Below, in pieces: positions 7,126 through 35,122 of a stretch of DNA of 35,122 nt (position 1 is the first letter of the stretch; the number at the start of each line of letters is the position of its first letter). Source of the stretch: Methanosphaera stadtmanae. Lineage in GTDB: Archaea; Methanobacteriota; Methanobacteria; Methanobacteriales; Methanobacteriaceae. The DNA lies in contig SUTR01000026.1 in assembly GCA_015062825.1 (NCBI GenBank), forward strand, positions 1-35,122, in the 5' to 3' direction. Below the pieces are notes generated by a model that was not told where the DNA came from, did not search any database, and worked only from the letters and a program-made list of their open reading frames with translations. The translations under genes and the position numbers were made by a program.

Positions 7126-7986
7126 TCAGTATAACTTACTATCGTTTTTATTTTTAAAGATTTCTTTCTTCATATTATCATAACTACCATATTCATCAAT
7201 GATATTCTGTTTTTGTTGTTGTGATAATCTCTGATATATTAAATCCAAATTATCTTCAGTCAATACATATTCATATTCATGTCTGCATCCTTGATAAACT
7301 ATTTTTCCATCTTTAACAGCGTATACTGTATTTATATTTACAGGAGTCCATTTATCATTAGAGACAGGTCTTGTAGAAAATATCAAACAATCATCATATT
7401 TTAGTGAATATAATGAATCCTCTTTATTAATATGAATATACATTAAGTTTCCATCATATATCATAATATTTAACTTATTGGATTCTGATAGATTGATGAT
7501 AATATTATTTATTAGATTAAACAGTTCCTCTTCAGATAGAATCCTTTGATTTTGGTCTTCAATCCGGTTAATTTCATCGATGATATAATATAATATTCTT
7601 TCCGAGTCCGTCTGACCTATCTGCATATCAACATATTTATCTAAAAGGTCACACTTGAAAATAGTACCATTATGCATTAATGTCCATTGTCTACCATTAT
7701 CATCTGACTTTGTGAACGGATGACAATTGGATAGATTAGTAATGCCTGTTGTAGCAAGTCTAATATGGGCAAAAGCATTCTTGGCAAGGATTTGATTGGA
7801 CAATATTGCTTTTAGTTGTTTGCTTTCAGTTGCTTTTTCAGGTCCCTTAAATATTTCCCGTTTATCATCATAAAATCGTGCAAAACCCCAACCATGTGGA
7901 TGTTGATTACAATGATTATAAAAGTATACTAGAAAATCATTTATAATCATATTATTTTTTGAAGTAATTGAAAATAATTCACACAT
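7126..7986 (-). CDS. Class II glutamine amidotransferase (GATase type 2, YafJ-like)
   Basis: 286 residues. In this Ntn-hydrolase fold the nucleophile is Cys2, exposed by removal of Met1; the start at 7986 gives MCELFS, with GGAGG eight bases before the ATG. The longer frame up to 8034 is rejected because it would bury Cys2. Conserved pieces: HGWGFA (about 36-41), AHIRLATTG (74-82), HNGTI, and GQTDSE. No synthase domain is fused and no amidotransferase partner is adjacent, so it resembles the stand-alone YafJ/EgtC-like hydrolases; the amide acceptor or substrate is unknown. It ends 161 bases from the potassium channel start and appears monocistronic. Confidence 0.88.
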   Translation of the reverse strand: MCELFSITSKNNMIINDFLVYFYNHCNQHPHGWGFARFYDDKREIFKGPEKATESKQLKAILSNQILAKNAFAHIRLATTGITNLSNCHPFTKSDDNGRQWTLMHNGTIFKCDLLDKYVDMQIGQTDSERILYYIIDEINRIEDQNQRILSEEELFNLINNIIINLSESNKLNIMIYDGNLMYIHINKEDSLYSLKYDDCLIFSTRPVSNDKWTPVNINTVYAVKDGKIVYQGCRHEYEYVLTEDNLDLIYQRLSQQQKQNIIDEYGSYDNMKKEIFKNKNDSKLY

Positions 7987-8170: not shown

Positions 8171-8575
8171 TTACAAGAACTTTCTTGTAAAATTTTTAAT
8201 GTTTTCAATATCATCTTCATTAGGTCTGTCAATATTCATGCCGGCAAAGCTACCTGGACAATGAAATTCATCATCCGATATTGTTATGTCGTTATTATTG
8301 CAAATATCTTTTATCTGATTATAACTTGACTGCATGATACCTGCTGTACTGAAGTTAACAAGCAATCCTATTTCTACATTCAGATTATTGAAGAAATTTT
8401 TAACGCTAGGATCTATTGCAGAACCATAGATACTACTTCCTAAAAACAGTACTCCAACATCCTCTTCAAGTTCATCAGATATAGGTTTTGCTTCTATATT
8501 TAGTACTTCTGCTATTGCATCTGCTAATTTTTTTGTATTTCCTGATTTAGTATAATATCGTATTGCATATTTCAT
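8171..8575 (-). CDS. Flavodoxin-domain protein
   Basis: 134 residues, one flavodoxin fold. The N-terminal strand and FMN phosphate loop are YYTKSGNTKKLA (about 7-18), followed by VGVLFLGSSIYGS, the second flavin-contact loop. It probably carries one- or two-electron flow as a soluble FMN protein, possibly close to menaquinone-dependent protoporphyrinogen-oxidase-like (HemG/FldA) short flavodoxins. Its ATG overlaps the stop of the peroxidase gene as TAATG, so the two are translationally coupled; a natural reading is that it supplies electrons in the same oxidative-stress response (inference). Confidence 0.85.
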   Translation of the reverse strand: MKYAIRYYTKSGNTKKLADAIAEVLNIEAKPISDELEEDVGVLFLGSSIYGSAIDPSVKNFFNNLNVEIGLLVNFSTAGIMQSSYNQIKDICNNNDITISDDEFHCPGSFAGMNIDRPNEDDIENIKNFTRKFL

Positions 8576-9114
8576 TATAATAACTCTTTAATTTTTTCCT
8601 TTACATCATTTAAATCTTCTGTTGGTTCAAATCTTTGAACAACATTTCCTTCACGATCCACTAAGAACTTAGTAAAGTTCCATTTGATGTCATCATTATC
8701 TTTATAGTTTCGGTTCATCACTTTAAGAGCTAATTTAAGTTTTCTAGCACCTTTTCCAGTTATATCCTTAAATGGCTGTTCTTTTTTAAGATATGTGTAT
8801 AATGGATCGGCATTTTCTCCATTTACATCAATTTTATCAAATATTGGATATTGTACTAAAAATTTAACACGGCAAGTTTCTTTAATTTCTGCACCTGTAC
8901 CTGGTGCCTGATTACCAAATTGGTTACATGGGAAGTCAAGTATTGTAAATCCTTCATCCTTAAATTCATTATACATTTCAGTCAATTCATTATATTGTGG
9001 TGTAAATCCACATTTTGTTGCTGAATTAACAATTAATAATACTTTACCTTCATATTCTTTTAATGACTGCATGTTTCCATCTGAATCTTTAACTTCAAAA
9101 TCATATATTGACAT
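8575..9114 (-). CDS. Glutathione peroxidase family thiol peroxidase (Cys type)
   Basis: 179 residues, typical length. Peroxidatic Cys35 sits in SATKCGFTPQYNEL; the rest of the catalytic tetrad is visible as Gln69 (NQFGNQAPGT), Trp145 and Asn146 (KWNFTKFLVDREG). Cys63 is in FPCNQF, and Cys81 (IKETCRVKF) is at the place of the resolving Cys of thioredoxin-using family members. Most likely it reduces hydroperoxides with thioredoxin, since methanogens normally lack glutathione. The frame opens at a GTG at 9123 that is itself part of AAGGTGA; the ATG at 9114, five bases after that site, is the true start. Coupled by TAATG overlap to the flavodoxin gene. The family is mainly bacterial and eukaryotic, so lateral acquisition is plausible. 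Confidence 0.92.
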   Translation of the reverse strand: MSIYDFEVKDSDGNMQSLKEYEGKVLLIVNSATKCGFTPQYNELTEMYNEFKDEGFTILDFPCNQFGNQAPGTGAEIKETCRVKFLVQYPIFDKIDVNGENADPLYTYLKKEQPFKDITGKGARKLKLALKVMNRNYKDNDDIKWNFTKFLVDREGNVVQRFEPTEDLNDVKEKIKELL

Positions 9115-9237
9115 TAATTTCACCTTGTGTATTTTTATATATTAAAATTACATTTTTATAATGCTTTATTTTTTATTATTATATACTTTGTATGTATGAT
9201 TTTTAATTCATCATATATAAGTTTTATTTTTGATTAA

Positions 9238-10143
9238 TTATAACAAGTTATCTAAAATTTCTTCTATATCCTCTGAAAATCTAATGTATCTTGATAAAAA
9301 ATCATTAAATGCATCTATTTTTGATAATTCTTCAGGAGTCATTAGCTTCCATGTCTTATGATATTCGACAGCTACTTCAAAATGACTTCTATTAAATCTT
9401 GCAAGGGTCCAGTCTTTAATTTTATAGGTCATCTGTTCAAATGGAAAACGAATAATAGAAGGAGTATTAAATCCTATGCCAAATTCAAGTAGTAATGTTT
9501 TTTCATTCACACAGCTATTTATAAATTCATTATATGCATTGCTTTGATAATGCCAATGTTCATCTTCAACAAAATAATGATCTTTTCTAAGGTGTGGATC
9601 CATAGGTCCATCACATACAGGACATTTAGGAACTAGATCATAGGGTATTTTCAAATCTTTGTCTGTGGAGTTTATCATTTCCTTGATTAGTTGACTGTTC
9701 TTATATACCTTCGGATGGCAGCCCTTTGAACATTGAATATAGTTATAGCTTCCCTGTGTTGCAAATACACATGAAGCTTCAAAATTTGATTTGAAGAATT
9801 GATCATCAACGTTGGTTGTTATGACAAAATAATTTTTGTCCTTGACTAAATCATATAACTTAGTATATAGTTTTGTTGATTGCATACCAACATTGTTAAG
9901 GTATATGTGTCTTGCCCAATATGCCCATTTTTCTTCTTCTGTATCAAATGGATAAAAACCTGATGTATACATATCAGTCATATCATATTTGTCTATAAAT
10001 TCTTGAAAGTTATCTGTAAATCTCTTCCCATCATATTCAATTCCTGCTGCTGTTGATAATCCAGCACCAGCTCCTATGATTATATTATCAGATTCATCTA
10101 ATAATTGTGCAATCTTATTTAATCTTTCTTTAAACTCATTCAT
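9238..10143 (-). CDS. Sirtuin, class M (SirTM)-like, His replaced by Gln
   Basis: 301 residues with the start at ATG 10143 (GAAGTGA five bases upstream); the longer frame to 10212 adds 23 residues of non-sirtuin character with no ribosome site. Rossmann NAD motif GAGAGLSTAAG (24-34) followed by YDGKRF, the NAD-ribose motif TTNVDDQF (109-116, Asn111), and a zinc ribbon Cys138-x3-Cys142 / Cys174-x2-Cys177. Where deacetylating sirtuins have the catalytic HG, this protein reads ATQGSY with Gln130. The GAGAGLS motif and this Gln are features I know from the SirTM class of protein ADP-ribosyltransferases, normally linked to a macrodomain gene and lipoylated GcvH-L. None of those partners is here. 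It lies between azlD and the peroxidase gene. Deacetylase activity seems unlikely; ADP-ribosylation is inferred. Confidence 0.87.
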   Translation of the reverse strand: MNEFKERLNKIAQLLDESDNIIIGAGAGLSTAAGIEYDGKRFTDNFQEFIDKYDMTDMYTSGFYPFDTEEEKWAYWARHIYLNNVGMQSTKLYTKLYDLVKDKNYFVITTNVDDQFFKSNFEASCVFATQGSYNYIQCSKGCHPKVYKNSQLIKEMINSTDKDLKIPYDLVPKCPVCDGPMDPHLRKDHYFVEDEHWHYQSNAYNEFINSCVNEKTLLLEFGIGFNTPSIIRFPFEQMTYKIKDWTLARFNRSHFEVAVEYHKTWKLMTPEELSKIDAFNDFLSRYIRFSEDIEEILDNLL

Positions 10144-10239
10144 ATCCTTCACTTCATTTATTAAATTTATTATAATATTTAGCAGTATTTCAATTAATTG
10201 TTTAGTTACCATTTTGTAACATAAAAAAAATAGATGAAA

Positions 10240-10554
10240 TTAGATTAATGGTATAATTGAATATACAATTATCAAAATTATAACAGTTAGTATAACTATT
10301 GCACCTAACGGTACTTTCTTCCATGATAGTCCTGCTGCTACTAGTGCTCCTATTAGGCCAATATACCATAACTTTGAATCTACAGTTAGTACACCAGGAC
10401 ATATTAATGCGGCAAGTGCTGTGTATGGAAGAAGATTAAGGAATTTTTCAGTCTTTGGTGAAAACTTTATTTTATCTACAAATATTGCTGGTACAAGACG
10501 AGGAATAAATGTTACAATCGCACATCCCAGTATCATCAGATTAACAGCATTCAT
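10240..10554 (-). CDS. azlD: AzlD-type branched-chain amino acid exporter small subunit
   Basis: 104 residues, about four membrane helices, usual size for AzlD. The family pattern is seen in TFIPRLVPA near the N-terminus, LPYTALAALICPG (about 42-54) and the glycine-rich GLIGALVAAGLSWKKVPLG. With AzlC it forms a secondary exporter of branched-chain amino acids or analogues. Its start overlaps the end of azlC by 14 bases, indicating translational coupling. The sirtuin gene follows within about 100 bases on the same strand. Confidence 0.9.
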   Translation of the reverse strand: MNAVNLMILGCAIVTFIPRLVPAIFVDKIKFSPKTEKFLNLLPYTALAALICPGVLTVDSKLWYIGLIGALVAAGLSWKKVPLGAIVILTVIILIIVYSIIPLI

Positions 10555-11272
10555 CCAATTCCTCCTGTGTATTATCTGTTAAGTATTCATCATCAACTAT
10601 ATGGACTCCTATTAAGGCCGCGATGAGTGTAGATACTATCAATGACCAATTGCCGATAACAAACTGCAATCCAGTATTCAATATTGCTGTAATTAATACC
10701 AATAGTCCTATTTGTCTATTTTCCTTAATTGCAGGCACCAATATTGCTACAAATAATGCATATAATGATATGTTGAAGCTGTTTGTAACTATGATAGGAA
10801 GTATATCCAATAGCAACACTCCTATTATTGCACCCAATATCCATGATAGATATGATGTAAATGCTATTCCAATGTATGTGCATATGGATGATTCATTCAT
10901 CAGACTGAAGACTGCAAATGCTTCATCTACTGCCAGATGTGCTGAAAGTATGTTAAGTGGAGTGGTGCTGTCTTTTGCCTTATTGTATATAACGGTATTC
11001 ATTACCATATATCGTAGATTGACAACAAAATTTGTAAGTATTATTGCTATTATACTAGCACCATTTAATAGCATTGTTGCACCTATGATTTCTCCTGCTC
11101 CTGCATATACAAATATTGAGAATAATACTGTTTGAATTGGATTCATTCCTGCCTTTAATGCTATTGCTGCATAGCCAATTCCCATTGGTACATAGCCCAA
11201 TGTTATTGGTACAGAGTTTTTTACACCAAGTATGAATTTATCCTTATCAAATTTAATTTTATCAACTCCCAT
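10541..11272 (-). CDS. azlC: AzlC-type branched-chain amino acid exporter large subunit
   Basis: 243 residues from ATG 11272. About seven membrane helices; the family start SVPITLGYVPMGIGYAAIALKAG, the motif FSIFVYAGAGE, and NLRYMVM with SAHLAVDEAFAVF are all characteristic of AzlC. The true start is uncertain. ATG 11272 has no ribosome site, whereas the first codons themselves contain GGAGTTGAT, which is placed eight bases (from GGAG) before an in-frame ATT at 11257. That ATT would give IKFDKDKFILGVKNSVP, close to a usual AzlC N-terminus and 5 residues shorter. Coupled to azlD by overlap. Confidence 0.9.
   Translation of the reverse strand: MGVDKIKFDKDKFILGVKNSVPITLGYVPMGIGYAAIALKAGMNPIQTVLFSIFVYAGAGEIIGATMLLNGASIIAIILTNFVVNLRYMVMNTVIYNKAKDSTTPLNILSAHLAVDEAFAVFSLMNESSICTYIGIAFTSYLSWILGAIIGVLLLDILPIIVTNSFNISLYALFVAILVPAIKENRQIGLLVLITAILNTGLQFVIGNWSLIVSTLIAALIGVHIVDDEYLTDNTQEELDECC
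11255..11270 (-). promoter_or_regulatory. Possible ribosome site with ATT start inside the annotated azlC 5' end
   Basis: The - strand reads GGGAGTTGATAAAATT; GGAGTTGAT differs from the ideal GGAGGTGAT at one base and the ATT is in frame with azlC. A competing ATG exists two bases upstream of this site but has no Shine-Dalgarno sequence of its own. Confidence 0.35.
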
Positions 11273-11317: not shown

Positions 11318-12085
11318 TTAATCTATATCTTTTATATGTGGATTTCTGTATTGACCATGACTATTTGTCCTGTTATCATATTGTATGGAAAACTGTGGAC
11401 ATAAATGCAGGCATCTAAGACACATTACACATCTTTCATATATCCATTCTATTTTTTCATCATTCAATTTAATTGCACTTATTGGACAGTTTTTCTCACA
11501 TAAGCCACATCCTGTACATGTATCCAATACATGTAGATGACTTGTTTTTCTTTGCCTATCATAAAATATCTGTGCAATATTTGATAGTATTTTATTTTTC
11601 TTATTTTTTGAGTAATCTCCATCATCATGTGATTGTATATGTTCTATGATGGCATCTATTTCATCCTCAGTAGTCTGATTGAATTTGTCAATCTTTTCTT
11701 GACTGCTTAAGTCAAATGAGGGTGTCCACGTATCGGCCATTTTCACACTATATGATGCGTTGAGTTTAATGTTTATATCTTGCAGATATTCTCTTACATA
11801 TCCTGATGAATATCCTGTGCTAGTTCCATAACTACTTATATGGTAGATATAATTATTTCCATTGGCATTAATTGTAATATTTGATAAATATTCTTCAACA
11901 TAACTTGGCAGTCCCCAAAAATATGTTGGAGTGATAATTCCCAATGTTTCATCTTCTTCTAAGTTTATTATATAATCATCATCCTTGACTAGTTGTATCA
12001 TTGACTGTATGGAGTCATTTGTCTGTTTACTTATTCTTGTTGCAATATATTTATTGTTTCCTGTTGCTGAGAAGTATATTATCAT
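11318..12085 (-). CDS. EFR1-type flavodoxin / 2[4Fe-4S] ferredoxin fusion
   Basis: 255 residues. An N-terminal flavodoxin domain (IIYFSATGNNKYIA phosphate loop at 2-15; TPTYFWGLPSYVEEYL at 52-67, as in EFR1-family proteins) is followed by a C-terminal bacterial-type ferredoxin with two complete clusters, CTGCGLCEKNCP (Cys190, 193, 196, 200) and CVMCLRCLHLCP (Cys219, 222, 225, 229). It can pass electrons between FMN and two [4Fe-4S] centres; partner unknown. GGTGAT precedes tandem ATG codons; the second (12085) has the better spacing, the first is 12088. It sits 45 bases upstream of azlC on the same strand. Confidence 0.9.
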   Translation of the reverse strand: MIIYFSATGNNKYIATRISKQTNDSIQSMIQLVKDDDYIINLEEDETLGIITPTYFWGLPSYVEEYLSNITINANGNNYIYHISSYGTSTGYSSGYVREYLQDINIKLNASYSVKMADTWTPSFDLSSQEKIDKFNQTTEDEIDAIIEHIQSHDDGDYSKNKKNKILSNIAQIFYDRQRKTSHLHVLDTCTGCGLCEKNCPISAIKLNDEKIEWIYERCVMCLRCLHLCPQFSIQYDNRTNSHGQYRNPHIKDID

Positions 12086-12160
12086 CATATCACCAAAATA
12101 GTTAGGTATTTCATAAGAGTATTAAAATAGATGAGAAGAGGGTCAAGGTTTTATTATGTT

Positions 12161-12979
12161 TTATATAATTGATAACCAATTTTGTATAATTTCATCATTG
12201 TCGTTTACTATTTTTCTTACATTTTCATAGTATGTTCCCTCTTTTATCCAGGAATCATTGTTTCTTTTTTCGATACAGTTGAATTTTTCATCATCTATCT
12301 TATATGCCAAACTCATATTGTTGTAGTTTGCAATATCATCTGTTTTAACATCATCTGTATAATCCCTATCTTCATCATCCTGTGCTAATCCCACTACTGC
12401 ACATAGTTCTAGGTCATATATTAAGGATACTTTGCTTCTTCCATTTGTTTTGGATAAGTCATAGTCTTCAAGGTATGTTCCTTTATTTAGCTCTTCTTGA
12501 TTTACTAGTGGTACTATAAATGGGATTCTTGATACTACGATTCTATTATCAAATACTCTTGCAAGTCTATGTTTCAGTAATGATTCTATTATGTATCTGT
12601 TTGGTGATTCTATTATTATGCTTGATTCAAATAGCAATGTTGCTTCATCAAGTTCTTCTTGTAGCAGATGATTTCCTCTGAATTCTGGCAGTACATAGAT
12701 ATGTTGCATTACAAGAGCATTTTCTTCAAAACTGCTTGTTCTATATGTTGCAAATCCCACTACTTCATTTTCATATACTATTTCTTTAAAGAAGAAACAT
12801 GTTTCATCTTCACGTATGTAGAAGTTATTTTCCTGTATTGATCTGTATATATAGATATAATTATCTTTAAGTAGTGGGATGATTGGTAATGTAAATATAT
12901 TATCGTCTTCATCTTTCTGATATTTAAATACTTCACCTAATCCTGTTGGTCTTTTAACTCTTTTGTTTGGATTTACCAT
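12161..12979 (-). CDS. GNAT-like protein with extra C-terminal region
   Basis: 272 residues. The middle part (about 60-150) looks like a GNAT acetyltransferase core: FFFKEIVYENEVVGFATYR, then the strand and acetyl-CoA pyrophosphate-loop-like MQHIYVLPEFRGNHLLQEEL, and a helix-strand end IIIESPNRYIIESLLKHR. The loop EFRGNHL is a degenerate version of the usual Q/RxxGxG/A. The last 110 residues are acidic and not recognised. N-terminal KRVKRPTGLGEVFKYQKDED is basic and unassigned. Substrate unknown; the acetyltransferase call rests on fold pattern only. Upstream of the EFR1 gene by 75 bases, possibly cotranscribed. Start ATG 12979 has CGGGG about ten bases before it. Confidence 0.68.
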   Translation of the reverse strand: MVNPNKRVKRPTGLGEVFKYQKDEDDNIFTLPIIPLLKDNYIYIYRSIQENNFYIREDETCFFFKEIVYENEVVGFATYRTSSFEENALVMQHIYVLPEFRGNHLLQEELDEATLLFESSIIIESPNRYIIESLLKHRLARVFDNRIVVSRIPFIVPLVNQEELNKGTYLEDYDLSKTNGRSKVSLIYDLELCAVVGLAQDDEDRDYTDDVKTDDIANYNNMSLAYKIDDEKFNCIEKRNNDSWIKEGTYYENVRKIVNDNDEIIQNWLSII

Positions 12980-28464: not shown

Positions 28465-31400
28465 TTAACTTCTTATTATTGTAGTTGTTACTCTGTCAGA
28501 CTTGTACATACCTGTTTCTCCAATAATGATTTCAAGTAAGTATGTGCCTGGAGTAAATTTAGTATCAAGTGTAGCATTAATTACACCATTTACTGCAGTT
28601 GTTCTAGCAGCTGTTCTACCATTTAGTTTGAATGCTACTGCTACTTGTGAATCAACATTAACCTTAAATTGATTTACAATATTTGCAGTTACTTGTGTAG
28701 TATCACTACTTGTTTTAATTGGATCTACTCTTATAAATGCTTCACCTTTAGTTACATTTAATGTATTTTTAGCTTCTGTTCTTTGATATCCTTTTTCAGA
28801 ATATACTGCTGTAATATCATGTACTCTTGCACTTAATGCAATTTTATAATCAAATATTGCAAGACCGTTAGCTACTTTTGCAGTGATTGTTTTACCATTT
28901 GCATCTTTAAGGGTTACACCATTAATTTTTATAAGTACTTGACCTGATTTTATTGGATTTCCATTGTCATCAGTAACTGTTACTACAAATTGTGTATTTT
29001 CACCATTTTCATGCGCCTTTTGATCGGCTATTTTAAGGTTGACTTTACCTGCAGTTACAACAAAGTTGTTTGTTGTGTTTCTACACTCATTATATCCATG
29101 TCCAGAGTATGCAGCCATAACTGTTAAGTTTTTATTATACCATGTTTTTTGTGCTGTGTATTTGATACTTGCTTTACCATTAGATACTTTTGCAAATATT
29201 GTATTTCCCTGTTCATCTTTAAGTGTTTCACCATTAACTTTAAATGATACTAAACCATTATTTACATCAGCACCTGTAGACTCTTTTAGTGTTGCAGTAA
29301 ATGTAACTGTTGATCCTACACTAGTATTTGTTGCACTTACAGTTAAGGTGATATTTTTAATAGCTGTTAAGTTTTCTATTTGTTTAGTTAAGTTATCAAT
29401 AGTTTTAGTTTGATTATTAATGGTTTTATTCAAATCATTTATTGTCTTATTCTGATTATTAATAGTTTTGTTTTGGTCAGCTATTGTCTTATTCTGATTA
29501 TTAATAGTATTATTCAAGTCTTTTAATGTATTGTTAAGTGCTGTAATGTTATTTTTAGCGTTTGTTAATTGTTTATTTAAGTCGTTTACTTTGTTGTTTA
29601 ATGTGTTAATCTGTTCTTTTGCTGTTGTAAGGTTTTTGTTTGTTTCATTTAATTCTTTTTCTAGGTTGTTTTTAGTCTGGTTTAATGCTTTTAACTGTGA
29701 ATCAAGTTGTGTTGCATTAGCCTGTGATGCTGCTAGTTTATCTTTTAGGTCTGTGATGTTATTGTTTGCCTGTGCTAATTGTTTTTCAAGGTTTGTTTTT
29801 GTATTGTTTAAATCATTTACCTGTGATTTTAGTTGTGTTATATTATTGTTTGCCTGTGCTAATTGTTTTTCTAAGTTGTCTATTGTTTTTTCCTGTTGTG
29901 CTATTTGTTGTTGAGCATCATTTAGACTTGCATTGACTGAGTCCAGCTGTGATTTAAGTTGTGTTGCATTAGCCTGTGATGCTGCTAGTTTATCTTTTAG
30001 GTCTGTGATGTTTTTAGTTGCATTTGCTAGTTGTTGTTCAAGTTGTGTGATATTGTTGTTTAAATTGTTTATTGTATCGTTTTGTTGTGCTATTTTATCA
30101 TTAGCCTGTGCAAGTTGATTTGTTAAGTTGTTTTTAGTATCGTTTAAGTCTTTTACTTCTTGTGTTAATTGTGTTATGTTATCATTAGCTTGTCTTAATT
30201 GTTCTTCTAATTCTTTGATTCTGTTGTCTTCTTCCTGTACTGTAATTGCAATTGTATTTTGTGATTGTGTGTAGTTTATAGTTTCTGGATATTCTACTGG
30301 TATTTCATATGTGCCTGGTGTTAATTCTGGATTGATTGTTTTTACACCATTTTCATCTGTGGTTAATGTTTGTTCAGGTTGCTCTGGTATTGTTACTTTA
30401 ATATCAGCATTTGATACTTTTTGACCTGTTGCTTTATCAACTACACTAATTTCAATATCCACGTTACCTTCAATATTGTTGTTTATTGTGTATATGATTT
30501 CGGTTGATCTTTGTTTTATGGTAATTTCTTCTGTCTGATTGTATTGTTTATCATTATATACTGCTATTATATCATATGTCTGGTCAGCAAATGTTACATC
30601 TGGTGTTAATGTTACTTGTCCATTGCCATCAGTTACTGCTGAAACAGTTCTAACATCATCTAATTTAATAGTTACATCAACATTACTTACAGGCTCGTTA
30701 ATATAATCATCAGTTACTATAACTTTTACTTCTACACATCCAACAGTATCATTTAGAACCTCTGAAGTAATAGATAATTTTTCTTCTACAAAGTTGATTG
30801 TAAATTCTGTCTGACTAATGTCTAAATATTTGAAATCACTGTTATATACTAATTTAAGATTTGCACTGTCACCTTGTGTGTATCCATATTTACTTTCTAA
30901 TTGTTTTGCAATTGAATTTAATGATATGCTTTCTGATTGCATATTATAATATGCCATAATAGGAATTTCATTATCATCAACAACAAGATATACTACTACA
31001 GTACCATTGTTATTGCTCTCATCATAGATAGTTAATTCAACATTATCCTCTACTGATGAATAATAGGAATATTCCTCTTTATCAGTGTTAATAGTTGATG
31101 TACCTGGTATCATTATTTTTGTTGTTGTAATATTTGGTAATATTACTTCTGAATCACTGATATATTTTATAGTTAATAAATGAGAACCTGCTTGCATTTG
31201 TCTAAATTTATCTTTAAATTCATTTAAATCTATACGATCTACATTATTAGAATGTACGTTAATTTCAATTGTATCAACATCATTTTCTAGATATGCAAAT
31301 AATGTACCATTTCCATAACTTGGATCAAATAAATTAAATCTGATATCCTCAATGGAATCGGTAGTTTTATTATAAACATATTCTTCTTCAACAGAATAAA

Positions 31401-34400
31401 TTGCTGCAGGATAATACAATTTAACAGTAATTATATATACATTACTACTATAAAGTCCGTCATTAGAATTATAAAGTAATTTAAGATGATAAATATCGGG
31501 ATAATTAATATTATTACTACTAAATGTAATAAATGAATTATCAACATAGACTTCATCCACATATTTATTATTAGAAGCATCTGTAATAGTTATATAACCA
31601 TCTATACCAACATCATTTCCTTCTTTATCTTTTAATGTAAATGTAGTGTTTATTGATTCCCAAGACATAGCACTAGTATCTTTTGCAGTTAGATTTAATG
31701 TATCTTTAACAGTAAATGATGTCTGATTTTGATAATCCCAATAAGTATCATTACCATCTGTATAATTATAGTATATTGTACAAATACTACCTCTATAATT
31801 ATCAAATACAAAATTCTGAGCATTTAAAGTAGCAATTCCATCCATTACTTCTATATTTTCTTGAGTGTATTTTTGTTCTCCATCACATTCTATAGTAATA
31901 TTTAATGAGCCTTTTGTTACATTTAAACCATGCTCATCTATTACTGAAAATTTGAATAAAGTAGAATCATCTTCAGTATCATATGATAAATAGTTCACAT
32001 TAACCTTTTTTATTATTTTAAATGTTAAATTTACAACAGTTTCAGCAGTTTCATAATCCCCATACATATCTACGAATTTTAATGTATATTCATAAGTTCC
32101 AAGATTATCACCATAATATAATATTCCAAGAGTTTTATTATAATAATCATATTCTACTTGTATAGGACCGTGGGGCTCAATGGAAATAGTTCCTTCAGGA
32201 TCTATCTGTGTACCATTAATATCTTTTAGTACAACTGGTACATATGTCCAAGTACTTTTTGGAACTATAGTATCATTTACATGAATGGTTAAATATTTGT
32301 TTATTTGTTTCCAATTGTCATACCTACTATCACGATATTGATAATCATCATCATGATATAATGCTGAAATGAAAAATTCTTGACCTACATATTTTTGAAT
32401 ATTTAATCCATCAAAAGTAATTGCGGCAATACCATCAACTACAGATCCAGTAGCAGTAAATAAAGTATCGTTTATATTACATGTTACATTAACCATTCCA
32501 GTATTTACACCTACCCATGTATTTAAATCATCATCATATGCTTGTACTTTAAAGTTAAATGTTGTAGAATCTTCATTTATATCATATTTAAGATAATTTA
32601 TCTGTGTTTGTTTCAATTTTTTCACAGTTAATGTAAATGTAGTAAATGTTTGTTGATACTTTTCATCAGTTTCAAATGATACGAAAACATTATAGACACC
32701 TTCTTTCCATGAAACGAAATTTATTTCATTTTCTTCGATGTAATAATTATAAGAAGAATTATTTATATAAAGATTAATATCTCCATCTAAATATAATATT
32801 TCACCCTCTTTATTCTTTAATACATATGGTATTATAATATAATCATCTTCTGGTACTATCATATCATTTATTTCTATAAATAATGATTCTCTTATAATTT
32901 CATATCTAGATGTTTCATAATCTTCATATGTATTATTTTCATGATATTTTATTGTTAAATAGAATTCATCACCGGTATATTCATATAGATTAGGTGAGGT
33001 TATTGTAATTAATGCTATTCCATTGGATACTTGGCTGCTTTGAGTAAATGTAACATCATTATTATTCATATCATATCCAGATATTGTAACTTCACCCTGT
33101 GAAATATCATTTCCTTCATAATCTTTAACACTTATGTTAAATGTAGTATAATCATCATCAAGAATATAATTATTAAATTCTAAATTAACTGGAAATTTAT
33201 CATATACATCAACAGAATAATAAGTATTAGATGATGAGTATTTATCAGTTATATTATTATAATATAATTGAAAATTTGCATCTGTTGGATAATTATCGTT
33301 TAAATGTGTTAATATTTCATTAGTGTTTATAGTAAAAGTTTGTTCTTCGACATTTACAGTTTGGAGTTCTACATAACTATTCGTATCATAATCATATACA
33401 CTTAAAGTCACAACACCTTCATTCACTTTTTGATAGGTATTACTAGTATATACAGAGAAATTAATGTTAATCTTTTCATCTGTTATAAAAATATAATAAG
33501 GAAACTCTCCATTAATATTGGTTAATTCTGTGTTAATCTTGTTCAAAATTACAGTACTATTACATAGATTATTACCATTTTCATCTTCATATATGAATAA
33601 AAGTCTATGTTCACCAATACTTAAATCTGAGACACTCACACAATTATAGTCATAACCACTAAAAGAATCGATAACTTTATATATTTCTCCATCCATTTGA
33701 ATAGTTACACTTCCAGGAATTGTTTTATAATCCCATGAATCATCATAATAACTATAGACTTCTATCTCAAACCAATATTCCTTTTGGTTTTTATATATAG
33801 TATGATTACCTCTTGGAATCATAGATTGTTTTAATATTAATGAGGAATTTGTTGTTGATACACTACCATCTTCAAATATAATCAGCCATTCTAATGTATA
33901 ATTATTAGCATATACTCCATTTGTAGATAATCTAATATTATTTTCATCTTTAGTTAAATCCATATTTCCAGGACGATTTGTTATTGTAACTCTATATTCA
34001 TCAGGATTAATAATATTATTATATTCATCCCTAACAGTAATTGGAATTATAATATCATCCCTAATATTACCTTCCATATTAGGCACTTCAACCGTATTAA
34101 CTGATGATTTATATATATTTACATATTTTTCTGCAGTTACATTTTGGAATTCTCCTGTTGAATCATTATAAGATATGATAACAGGAACATATAATGGATA
34201 ATTTATTGTATCATAATATGATAATAAATCATTTAAGCCAATAGTTAGTTCAGTCTCATTTACATCAACTGTCTTTAATAAAATTTGTTCATCATCTTTA
34301 TAGAAAATAAATGAAACATTACCTTTTGTTACTTGATTATCTGTAGAATATTCAGATACATTGAATTTTATCTCTACATTTTCATCTGTTGAAAAAATTA

Positions 34401-35122
34401 TAGGTATATCATTAACACTAAGTGTTGTTCTTAATGTGTCTAATTTAATTATTTTAAATGTTCTTTCAATATTTGAATAATTCCCACTTTCATCAATAAA
34501 TGATAAAGTAACGTTATGTTCACCTACACTTAAATCATCAACATATATATCTGAATCATAACTATATTCATCATATAAATTTATTGTTTCATATACTTGG
34601 CCATCTAATGTTACAATTACTTTTCGGCCATCCCCATAAACAAGTTCATCCCAATAATCATCATATACTGTACAATCAATTGAGATTAAATATTCATCTT
34701 TATAAACTGTTCTATCATAAACTGAATTGAAATGCGGAACTCGTTTAATTATAATTAAAGAAGTAGTTTGAATTAAAGATTGATCTTCAAATTGTATAGC
34801 CCATTTTAAAGTATCAGTTCCAGTTGAATAAAATTGATCTCTTGATATAATTATAAAATTTCCTTCACGATTATATGGAATATGAGAACCATATAAAGTT
34901 AAATCATTTATTGTGAATTCAGGCATTATTTCATTCCCATTAGCATCTTTAATTATTATTGGAATGGATACTTCTTGAGTATCATATTCTACTATTACAT
35001 CATCTATTTCTACTATATAATTTGATACATGATAAATATCAAAACTATTATAATAGGAACTATTTGCATAAATTCCTGATAGATCAGTATAATTTATATA
35101 ATAACTTACACTTATTGGATAA
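28465..35122 (-). CDS. Giant adhesin-like surface protein, 5' end outside the window
   Basis: At least 2218 codons. An ATG at 34926 is not the start: the frame stays open to base 35122 and continues the same repeat type upstream. Numbering from that Met: residues 1-1550 are Tyr/Asp/Asn-rich beta-sandwich repeats, including two clear tandem copies of about 305 residues (compare DTLKW near 38 with YTLEW near 343, and DLSVGEH 131 with DLSIGEH 434), then shorter Ig-like units (FTLTV / NVTC / KDINGT type) and invasin-like domains (ATGQKVSNADIKVTIPEQ). About 1567-1857 is a coiled-coil rod rich in Leu, Asn, Gln and Thr. Three Ig-like domains end the protein (TTTIIRS), without sorting motif, membrane helix or cell wall-binding repeat. 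It is an exported, probably N-glycosylated surface protein of the methanogen adhesin-like type; signal peptide and anchor are unseen. Low Cys. Confidence 0.9.
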   Translation of the reverse strand, partial: YPISVSYYINYTDLSGIYANSSYYNSFDIYHVSNYIVEIDDVIVEYDTQEVSIPIIIKDANGNEIMPEFTINDLTLYGSHIPYNREGNFIIISRDQFYSTGTDTLKWAIQFEDQSLIQTTSLIIIKRVPHFNSVYDRTVYKDEYLISIDCTVYDDYWDELVYGDGRKVIVTLDGQVYETINLYDEYSYDSDIYVDDLSVGEHNVTLSFIDESGNYSNIERTFKIIKLDTLRTTLSVNDIPIIFSTDENVEIKFNVSEYSTDNQVTKGNVSFIFYKDDEQILLKTVDVNETELTIGLNDLLSYYDTINYPLYVPVIISYNDSTGEFQNVTAEKYVNIYKSSVNTVEVPNMEGNIRDDIIIPITVRDEYNNIINPDEYRVTITNRPGNMDLTKDENNIRLSTNGVYANNYTLEWLIIFEDGSVSTTNSSLILKQSMIPRGNHTIYKNQKEYWFEIEVYSYYDDSWDYKTIPGSVTIQMDGEIYKVIDSFSGYDYNCVSVSDLSIGEHRLLFIYEDENGNNLCNSTVILNKINTELTNINGEFPYYIFITDEKININFSVYTSNTYQKVNEGVVTLSVYDYDTNSYVELQTVNVEEQTFTINTNEILTHLNDNYPTDANFQLYYNNITDKYSSSNTYYSVDVYDKFPVNLEFNNYILDDDYTTFNISVKDYEGNDISQGEVTISGYDMNNNDVTFTQSSQVSNGIALITITSPNLYEYTGDEFYLTIKYHENNTYEDYETSRYEIIRESLFIEINDMIVPEDDYIIIPYVLKNKEGEILYLDGDINLYINNSSYNYYIEENEINFVSWKEGVYNVFVSFETDEKYQQTFTTFTLTVKKLKQTQINYLKYDINEDSTTFNFKVQAYDDDLNTWVGVNTGMVNVTCNINDTLFTATGSVVDGIAAITFDGLNIQKYVGQEFFISALYHDDDYQYRDSRYDNWKQINKYLTIHVNDTIVPKSTWTYVPVVLKDINGTQIDPEGTISIEPHGPIQVEYDYYNKTLGILYYGDNLGTYEYTLKFVDMYGDYETAETVVNLTFKIIKKVNVNYLSYDTEDDSTLFKFSVIDEHGLNVTKGSLNITIECDGEQKYTQENIEVMDGIATLNAQNFVFDNYRGSICTIYYNYTDGNDTYWDYQNQTSFTVKDTLNLTAKDTSAMSWESINTTFTLKDKEGNDVGIDGYITITDASNNKYVDEVYVDNSFITFSSNNINYPDIYHLKLLYNSNDGLYSSNVYIITVKLYYPAAIYSVEEEYVYNKTTDSIEDIRFNLFDPSYGNGTLFAYLENDVDTIEINVHSNNVDRIDLNEFKDKFRQMQAGSHLLTIKYISDSEVILPNITTTKIMIPGTSTINTDKEEYSYYSSVEDNVELTIYDESNNNGTVVVYLVVDDNEIPIMAYYNMQSESISLNSIAKQLESKYGYTQGDSANLKLVYNSDFKYLDISQTEFTINFVEEKLSITSEVLNDTVGCVEVKVIVTDDYINEPVSNVDVTIKLDDVRTVSAVTDGNGQVTLTPDVTFADQTYDIIAVYNDKQYNQTEEITIKQRSTEIIYTINNNIEGNVDIEISVVDKATGQKVSNADIKVTIPEQPEQTLTTDENGVKTINPELTPGTYEIPVEYPETINYTQSQNTIAITVQEEDNRIKELEEQLRQANDNITQLTQEVKDLNDTKNNLTNQLAQANDKIAQQNDTINNLNNNITQLEQQLANATKNITDLKDKLAASQANATQLKSQLDSVNASLNDAQQQIAQQEKTIDNLEKQLAQANNNITQLKSQVNDLNNTKTNLEKQLAQANNNITDLKDKLAASQANATQLDSQLKALNQTKNNLEKELNETNKNLTTAKEQINTLNNKVNDLNKQLTNAKNNITALNNTLKDLNNTINNQNKTIADQNKTINNQNKTINDLNKTINNQTKTIDNLTKQIENLTAIKNITLTVSATNTSVGSTVTFTATLKESTGADVNNGLVSFKVNGETLKDEQGNTIFAKVSNGKASIKYTAQKTWYNKNLTVMAAYSGHGYNECRNTTNNFVVTAGKVNLKIADQKAHENGENTQFVVTVTDDNGNPIKSGQVLIKINGVTLKDANGKTITAKVANGLAIFDYKIALSARVHDITAVYSEKGYQRTEAKNTLNVTKGEAFIRVDPIKTSSDTTQVTANIVNQFKVNVDSQVAVAFKLNGRTAARTTAVNGVINATLDTKFTPGTYLLEIIIGETGMYKSDRVTTTIIRS
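29440..29466 (-). repeat. 27-bp direct repeat, copy 1 (TINNQNKTI)
   Basis: Identical to 29482-29508; offset 42 bp, that is 14 codons or 2 heptads. It belongs to a run of six to seven heptads T-I-x-N/D-Q/L-N/T-K. Confidence 0.85.
29482..29508 (-). repeat. 27-bp direct repeat, copy 2 (TINNQNKTI)
   Basis: Second copy of 29440-29466, in frame. Confidence 0.85.
29704..29760 (-). repeat. 57-bp direct repeat, copy 1, in adhesin coiled coil
   Basis: Identical to 29956-30012. It encodes DLKDKLAASQANATQL. The offset is 252 bp, 84 codons or exactly 12 heptads. Confidence 0.9.
29759..29787 (-). repeat. 29-bp direct repeat, copy 1 (LEKQLAQANNN)
   Basis: Identical to 29843-29871; offset 84 bp, that is 28 codons or 4 heptads. 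Confidence 0.85.
29843..29871 (-). repeat. 29-bp direct repeat, copy 2 (LEKQLAQANNN)
   Basis: Second copy of 29759-29787 in the same frame of the coiled-coil region. Confidence 0.85.
29956..30012 (-). repeat. 57-bp direct repeat, copy 2, in adhesin coiled coil
   Basis: Second identical copy of 29704-29760, in the same reading frame. Exchange between the copies would remove or add 84 residues without shifting frame or heptad phase. Confidence 0.9.

Follow-up and report, generated by a model that had tools for sequence, protein, structure and literature searches.

A class M sirtuin of Methanosphaera stadtmanae with a predicted zinc-macrodomain partner encoded on a separate contig

The sirtuin gene in the window (the whole stretch of DNA analysed, 35,122 nucleotides of Methanosphaera stadtmanae contig SUTR01000026.1) is, by its sequence characters, a genuine class M sirtuin (SirTM), and a zinc-type macrodomain protein (Zn-Macro) is encoded elsewhere in the same genome. 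The first-pass annotation had described the gene as an orphan ADP-ribosyltransferase; this reading is wrong, because a Zn-Macro gene lies on contig C14 and all 75 genomes of the host's family with a SirTM-class gene also carry one. We consider it probable that the window encodes a SirTM of the minimal type, which would ADP-ribosylate a partner protein, with a Zn-Macro acting as eraser in trans after the division of a single cluster, and with a target in a redox module rather than lipoyl-GcvH-L. Most likely, the enzyme would transfer a single ADP-ribose from NAD+ to a side chain of its partner, acidic or otherwise nucleophilic, with Gln130 and Arg186 positioning the nicotinamide ribose without a catalytic His, and the ADP-ribose mark would most likely be removed by the Zn-dependent macrodomain hydrolase encoded at C14:13981-14796. 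Elsewhere in the genus the two genes normally form one cluster (Zn-Macro - SirTM - GPx - flavodoxin), which is split in this host, and the target would lie in the flavin/peroxidase redox module. Both the transferase activity and the pairing in trans are what we infer from sequence.

Identity of the window sirtuin

The reading frame proposed at the outset was recovered on the minus strand, with 301 residues from an ATG at position 10143 (Table 1); an in-frame start further upstream, at 10212, would yield 324 residues, and alignments place the start of relatives at the 10143 position. The host is a methanogen, as had been supposed, of the genus Methanosphaera, with a genome of 2.6 Mb in 132 contigs (99.9% complete, estimated contamination 1.72%). 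The nearest solved protein in a phmmer search of the PDB was SpySirTM (5a3a, E = 9 × 10−52), followed by the SirTM half of the fungal protein Mfs1 (8rsn, E = 2 × 10−22), against an E of only 0.02 for human SIRT3; the SpySirTM match far exceeds what chance would give. The Pfam SIR2 profile was borderline (24.4 bits and above cut-off in the genome search, 23.6 against a cut-off of 24 in the protein scan), and scores of NCBIfam deacylase models lay far under their cut-offs. A genome profile search found the window gene as the sole SIR2 match and no classical archaeal sirtuin. The predicted structure (AF2 pLDDT 90.6, pTM 0.89) matched 5a3a best in Foldseek (E = 1.7 × 10−28, TM 0.84/0.88), then Mfs1, then classical sirtuins from 1 × 10−11. 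Sequence, predicted fold and phylogeny thus agree on the SirTM type first proposed.

Table 1. Features of the SirTM locus and of the predicted SirTM active site (positions in the window)
Feature	Position	Strand	Basis
SirTM (class M sirtuin), predicted protein mono-ADP-ribosyltransferase	9238..10143	-	PDB phmmer, tree, AF2/Foldseek
NAD-binding motif GAGAGLS, residues 24-30	10054..10074	-	SirTM alignment
TTNVD, residues 109-113; Asn111 = SpySirTM Asn118, Asp113 = Asp120	9805..9819	-	Alignments; roles from PMC4518038
Gln130 = SpySirTM Gln137, in place of the catalytic His of other sirtuins	9754..9756	-	Invariant in alignments A1 and A2
Zinc site, first half, C138 and C142	9718..9732	-	Invariant in alignments
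Zinc site, second half, C174 and C177	9613..9624	-	Invariant in alignments
Arg186 = SpySirTM Arg192, partner of the catalytic Gln	9586..9588	-	Invariant in A1 and A2; role from PMC4518038
GIGFNTP, residues 222-228 = class M motif GVGx[NT]TP (pyrophosphate contact)	9460..9480	-	PMC4518038, alignments
GPx-A, glutathione peroxidase family, Cys type	8575..9123	-	PF00255, E 7e-42; clade A of GPx tree
Flavodoxin-like protein, overlaps GPx stop	8171..8575	-	Flavodoxin_3, E 4e-7; conserved synteny
Class II glutamine amidotransferase-like, conserved Methanosphaera locus member	7126..7986	-	GATase_4, E 1e-31; synteny
AzlD and AzlC transport pair, in the Zn-Macro slot of relatives	10240..11272	-	AzlC/AzlD Pfam; absent from relatives' loci
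EFR1-family flavodoxin-ferredoxin	11318..12088	-	NF038196, 229.6 bits; synteny in L075 and L076
GNAT-type acetyltransferase, conserved upstream neighbour in genus	12161..12979	-	Synteny

In a tree of 45 proteins (LG+C20+F+G4), the window protein grouped with SirTMs of the same genus, inside a SirTM set that included those of bacterial minimal pairs. Classical archaeal sirtuins of the same genome family (TQNID...HGS) formed a separate branch of 4.0 changes per column with support of 100/100, in a tree whose outgroup was only these four classical archaeal sirtuins, with a small bacterial sample drawn from plasmid records and several long deep branches. SirTMs stand apart from the classical archaeal sirtuins, and therefore the clustering with deacylating sirtuins that would have counted against the class was not found; the window SirTM is phylogenetically distinct from them.

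The motifs from which the class had originally been read, GAGAGLSTAAG (residues 24-34), TTNVDDQF (109-116), ATQGSY with Gln130 and a four-Cys zinc site of the pattern CxxxC...CxxC (C138, C142, C174, C177), are all present and conserved in relatives, and the key residues are invariant or near-invariant across the aligned SirTMs. Q130-G131 is invariant in these alignments, with HG at the same place in the classical archaeal sirtuins of the host's family, so that the window protein carries QG instead of the HG catalytic histidine of classical deacylases, alongside the class motif GVGx[NT]TP and the equivalent of Arg192. Mutation of Asn118, Gln137 or Arg192 in SpySirTM strongly lowered ADP-ribosyl transfer, and the Gln137His change abolished it (PMC4518038). 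As its active-site residues, class motif and zinc cysteines are conserved, the window protein looks like an ordinary intact SirTM, of a known class and in a lineage where the pair was already known. In one genus group, g10 (L030-L036, L054, L058, L062-L066), the aligned main-copy SirTMs all read TTNVE, whereas others, including that of the window, read TTNVD; in g10, Glu therefore replaces the Asp that contacts nicotinamide in SpySirTM.

Degenerate relatives were also observed. Four genomes of genus group g9 carry, next after an intact SirTM, a paralogue (L029:2556-3431, L019:386-1255, L020:453-1322, L083:9982-10908) in which GAGAGLS has become AGGEYLS, QG has become NG, the catalytic Arg has become Thr and GIGFNTP is lost, and this paralogue is likely a pseudoenzyme retained beside an active pair. 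Tandem SirTM-like genes with no adjoining macrodomain annotated occur in Mesobacillus (L104:4006-5867) and Paenibacillus (L110:1653-3488), followed by an HD-domain protein and a nicotinate phosphoribosyltransferase; the second copy has EG for QG and GVGARNQ for GVGxNTP, and the arrangement looks like an NAD-salvage-linked pair of active and inactive sirtuins. A Levilactobacillus plasmid (L107:3989-6179) carries a SirTM-like gene without the usual zinc cysteines, and the protein encoded next to it, annotated as a cupin, contains a second, degenerate SirTM-like domain.

The macrodomain gene and the divided cluster

A search of the genome for a macrodomain, as proposed in the first-pass annotation, returned a single gene at C14:13981-14796. 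Its 272-residue product (P0002) has a MacroD-type domain with the NAAN motif, a Cys/His zinc loop (NAAN...CHNCIDNQ) and an N-terminal region (NAANSQGLGCFVPCHNCIDNQ), and aligned over nearly its full length (residues 3-269) with SauMacro (5kiv, E = 2 × 10−60) and also matched MorMacro (8rsi, E = 5 × 10−59); on these sequence characters it is a Zn-Macro. The earlier remark that the sirtuin lacks its usual macrodomain partners holds locally, with none adjoining the gene, and fails for the genome as a whole. Across the host's family, 75 of 139 genomes had a SirTM-class gene, and in 76 of 79 SirTM loci the Zn-Macro gene lay directly upstream on the same strand. The three non-adjacent loci were that of the host, one in G029, where the end of a contig truncates the gene, and one in G047 that is a second, divergent copy. 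The host therefore has both genes of a minimal SirTM/Zn-Macro pair, in trans and without GcvH-L and LplA; adjacency or fusion of the two, absent at the window SirTM, was counted as a gene arrangement and not as part of the class definition.

Gene order indicates how the separation may have arisen. Same-genus relatives have the order hydrolase - GNAT - [EFR1 flavodoxin] - Zn-Macro - SirTM - [cation efflux] - GPx (one or two) - flavodoxin - GATase, with the EFR1 gene directly upstream of Zn-Macro in two genomes (L075, L076), and the window keeps this order except that AzlC-AzlD occupies the place of Zn-Macro. GPx-A lies ∼115 bp downstream of SirTM, as in genus relatives, and on C14 a second GPx gene (L078:8402-8953) lies ∼1 kb from Zn-Macro in the same orientation. 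The GPx tree resolved two clades (A and B, each 100/100), with the window GPx in A and that of C14 in B; in relatives, Zn-Macro, SirTM, GPx-A and GPx-B follow one another directly, and in G126 and G115 both GPx types stand beside SirTM. Genus synteny and the division of GPx into two clades are explained most simply if a single cluster was divided in the host into SirTM with GPx-A and Zn-Macro with GPx-B. No Zn-Macro remnant was found beside the window SirTM, no SirTM remnant beside the C14 Zn-Macro (best E = 0.11) and no convincing repeats around AzlCD that would mark an insertion. Misassembly is an unlikely cause, since both flanks of SirTM are syntenic on one contig. The C14 contig could in principle be a contaminant, which is argued against by the fact that a SirTM would be expected after Zn-Macro, as in relatives, and none follows on C14.

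The neighbouring genes had been described as a thiol peroxidase and flavodoxins. Flavodoxin-type proteins do flank the locus; the peroxidase does adjoin SirTM, and its identity is that of a Cys-type glutathione-peroxidase family protein. Elsewhere in the window, positions 28465-34926 (minus strand) encode a repetitive adhesin-like protein of 2153 residues with long coiled-coil (N-rich) repeats. Contigs G018:C61 and G126:C3, assigned to different genera, are almost identical over the locus, which suggests that a Methanosphaera contig was binned into an assembly of another genus.

Candidate targets and alternative readings

To our knowledge, GcvH-L is the only known target of a SirTM. Searching the host genome for GcvH and lipoate ligase genes, another check proposed earlier, gave no match to GCV_H or to an LplA-type ligase (LplA-B_cat), and hence no extended operon in which GcvH-L and a lipoate ligase accompany the pair. 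Within the host's family, GCV_H matches were short, weak and nearly all within frames of ∼465-610 residues; they were rejected as GcvH for this reason and are read as putative biotinyl domains. Lipoyl-GcvH-L is consequently a very unlikely substrate of the window SirTM, in agreement with the inability of MorMacro, from a minimal archaeal pair, to demodify GcvH-L (PMC11490716). The same study gives the targets of other SirTM/Zn-Macro systems as unknown. The suggestion that the target is something other than GcvH-L is thereby supported.

That the target may instead be a redox protein is plausible. Across the genus, GPx and flavodoxin genes keep their synteny with SirTM. Of 20 archaeal genomes searched, 8 had a gene of the PNPOx_N type (flavin split-barrel) no more than 2 kb from the pair, where random placement would predict 0.16, although these 20 genomes were chosen, not drawn, and those of the same genus are not independent. 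The archaeal PNPOx neighbours belong to three genera other than Methanosphaera, in which none of five genomes searched had PNPOx near the pair; the redox-target argument therefore rests on differing neighbours in differing genera. In bacteria, PNPOx or PNPOx-ferredoxin genes adjoin the pair in Enterococcus, Treponema, Roseburia and Traorella, and a flavodoxin-fold oxidoreductase does so in Vibrio. The extended SirTM operon carries the flavoenzymes OYE and LLM (PMC4518038), and pyridoxamine or flavin is not mentioned in PMC11490716. PNPOx genes beside minimal pairs of unrelated lineages were noted at L003:3902-5131, L101:5833-6282, L102:3939-4415, L103:3639-4226, L094:4094-4507 and G043:C1:118195-118521; some are fused to ferredoxin domains, and Rrf2 or HxlR regulators are often encoded nearby.

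One part of the redox argument did not stand. GPx was present in 66 of 75 SirTM genomes of the host's family against 15 of the 64 others, but an independent-pairs test controlling for phylogeny gave ∼3 pairs for and 1 against (median P = 0.6), on an rpoB tree mostly of two other genera and with GPx and SirTM sharing a locus in Methanosphaera. Co-occurrence with GPx was accordingly dropped as support, so that the redox target proposed in the first-pass annotation retains the conserved GPx/flavodoxin synteny and loses this correlation. A more specific version, in which the pair of Methanosphaera and related gut methanogens would be a lipoate-independent ADP-ribosylation switch on flavin/peroxidase redox proteins (flavodoxin, Cys-GPx and PNPOx-type split-barrel flavoproteins), is a speculative extension that we hold with considerable doubt. 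If true, control of flavoproteins, and not of lipoyl-GcvH, would be a general theme of minimal pairs across archaea and bacteria.

The same enzyme might act on a GcvH-related carrier-domain protein. An example is pyruvate carboxylase B, whose biotinyl domain is the closest relative of lipoyl domains that these archaea retain and would fit the biotinyl reading of the family's GCV_H-like matches. The S. pyogenes SirTM does modify a lipoyl-domain protein, but that modification is strictly lipoylation dependent (PMC4518038), and no linkage of a carrier-domain gene to SirTM was seen; such a target is improbable. We think it quite improbable that the window SirTM is a true orphan placing irreversible marks on a neighbouring redox protein: no macrodomain gene lies beside it in the window and its GPx and flavodoxin neighbours are conserved in the genus, but this is countered by the C14 gene and by the presence of Zn-Macro in every SirTM genome of the family.

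Sir2-fold NADases are known in anti-phage systems. A role as a Sir2 enzyme that consumes NAD+ or serves in defence, in place of protein modification, would accord with this and with the gene directly upstream of the separated Zn-Macro, which encodes a Csm6/Csx1-like CARF-HEPN protein (L078:10881-12239, on C14). However, the chromosomal surroundings of SirTM are stable across the genus and no PADLOC model matched SirTM or Zn-Macro; a defence role was rejected on the latter ground, and the reading as a whole is very improbable. A relative of the CARF-HEPN protein is encoded at L078:15022-16167. Least probable is that the protein deacylates lysine as ordinary sirtuins do and tolerates Gln in place of His. 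Its sirtuin fold and its intact site for NAD would favour this; against it, Arg186, GIGFNTP and the Gln itself are class M features, the tree sets the protein apart from classical archaeal sirtuins, Gln137His inactivates SpySirTM and SirTMs lacked deacylase activity (PMC4518038).

Relation to known systems

The preferred reading, a minimal-type SirTM with its Zn-Macro in trans, can be set against four kinds of known protein. The SirTMs of S. pyogenes and S. aureus (PDB 5a3a-5a3c; PMC4518038) share with it the fold, Gln for His, the Asn/Asp/Arg set, the GVGx[NT]TP motif and the four-Cys zinc site, and an extended-operon SirTM of Aerococcus is 33% identical to it. In contrast to these systems, the host lacks GcvH-L and LplA and its Zn-Macro gene is not adjacent, and relative to bacterial SirTMs the window protein has an insertion of ∼20 residues near the C-terminus. 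The minimal pair of Methanobrevibacter oralis (MorMacro, 8rsi; PMC11490716) is, as in the host, an archaeal writer and eraser without GcvH-L/LplA, whereas in the host the two genes stand on different contigs and the Methanosphaera neighbours are GPx and flavodoxin. The fungal macrodomain-SirTM fusion Mfs1 (8rsn), the second-best structural match, has a SirTM domain with QG but is a single fused polypeptide with 21% identity to the window SirTM. Classical archaeal sirtuins share the Rossmann fold and zinc ribbon, and differ in their catalytic His, their separate long-branch clade and their absence from the host genome.

Archaeal SirTM/Zn-Macro pairs were thus already known from M. oralis, and the host adds a member with an unusual split arrangement. 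Two features of the host are informative: the genes of writer and eraser lie apart, and a substrate of the known kind is missing. More than half of the genomes of this family carry the pair and none has a clear GcvH (nor has the genome tested here a lipoate ligase), which shows that SirTM/Zn-Macro pairs cannot depend on lipoylation as a general rule. The neighbouring genes give short lists of candidate targets (GPx, flavodoxin and PNPOx), and the unlinked arrangement is a natural case of a writer and an eraser encoded apart.
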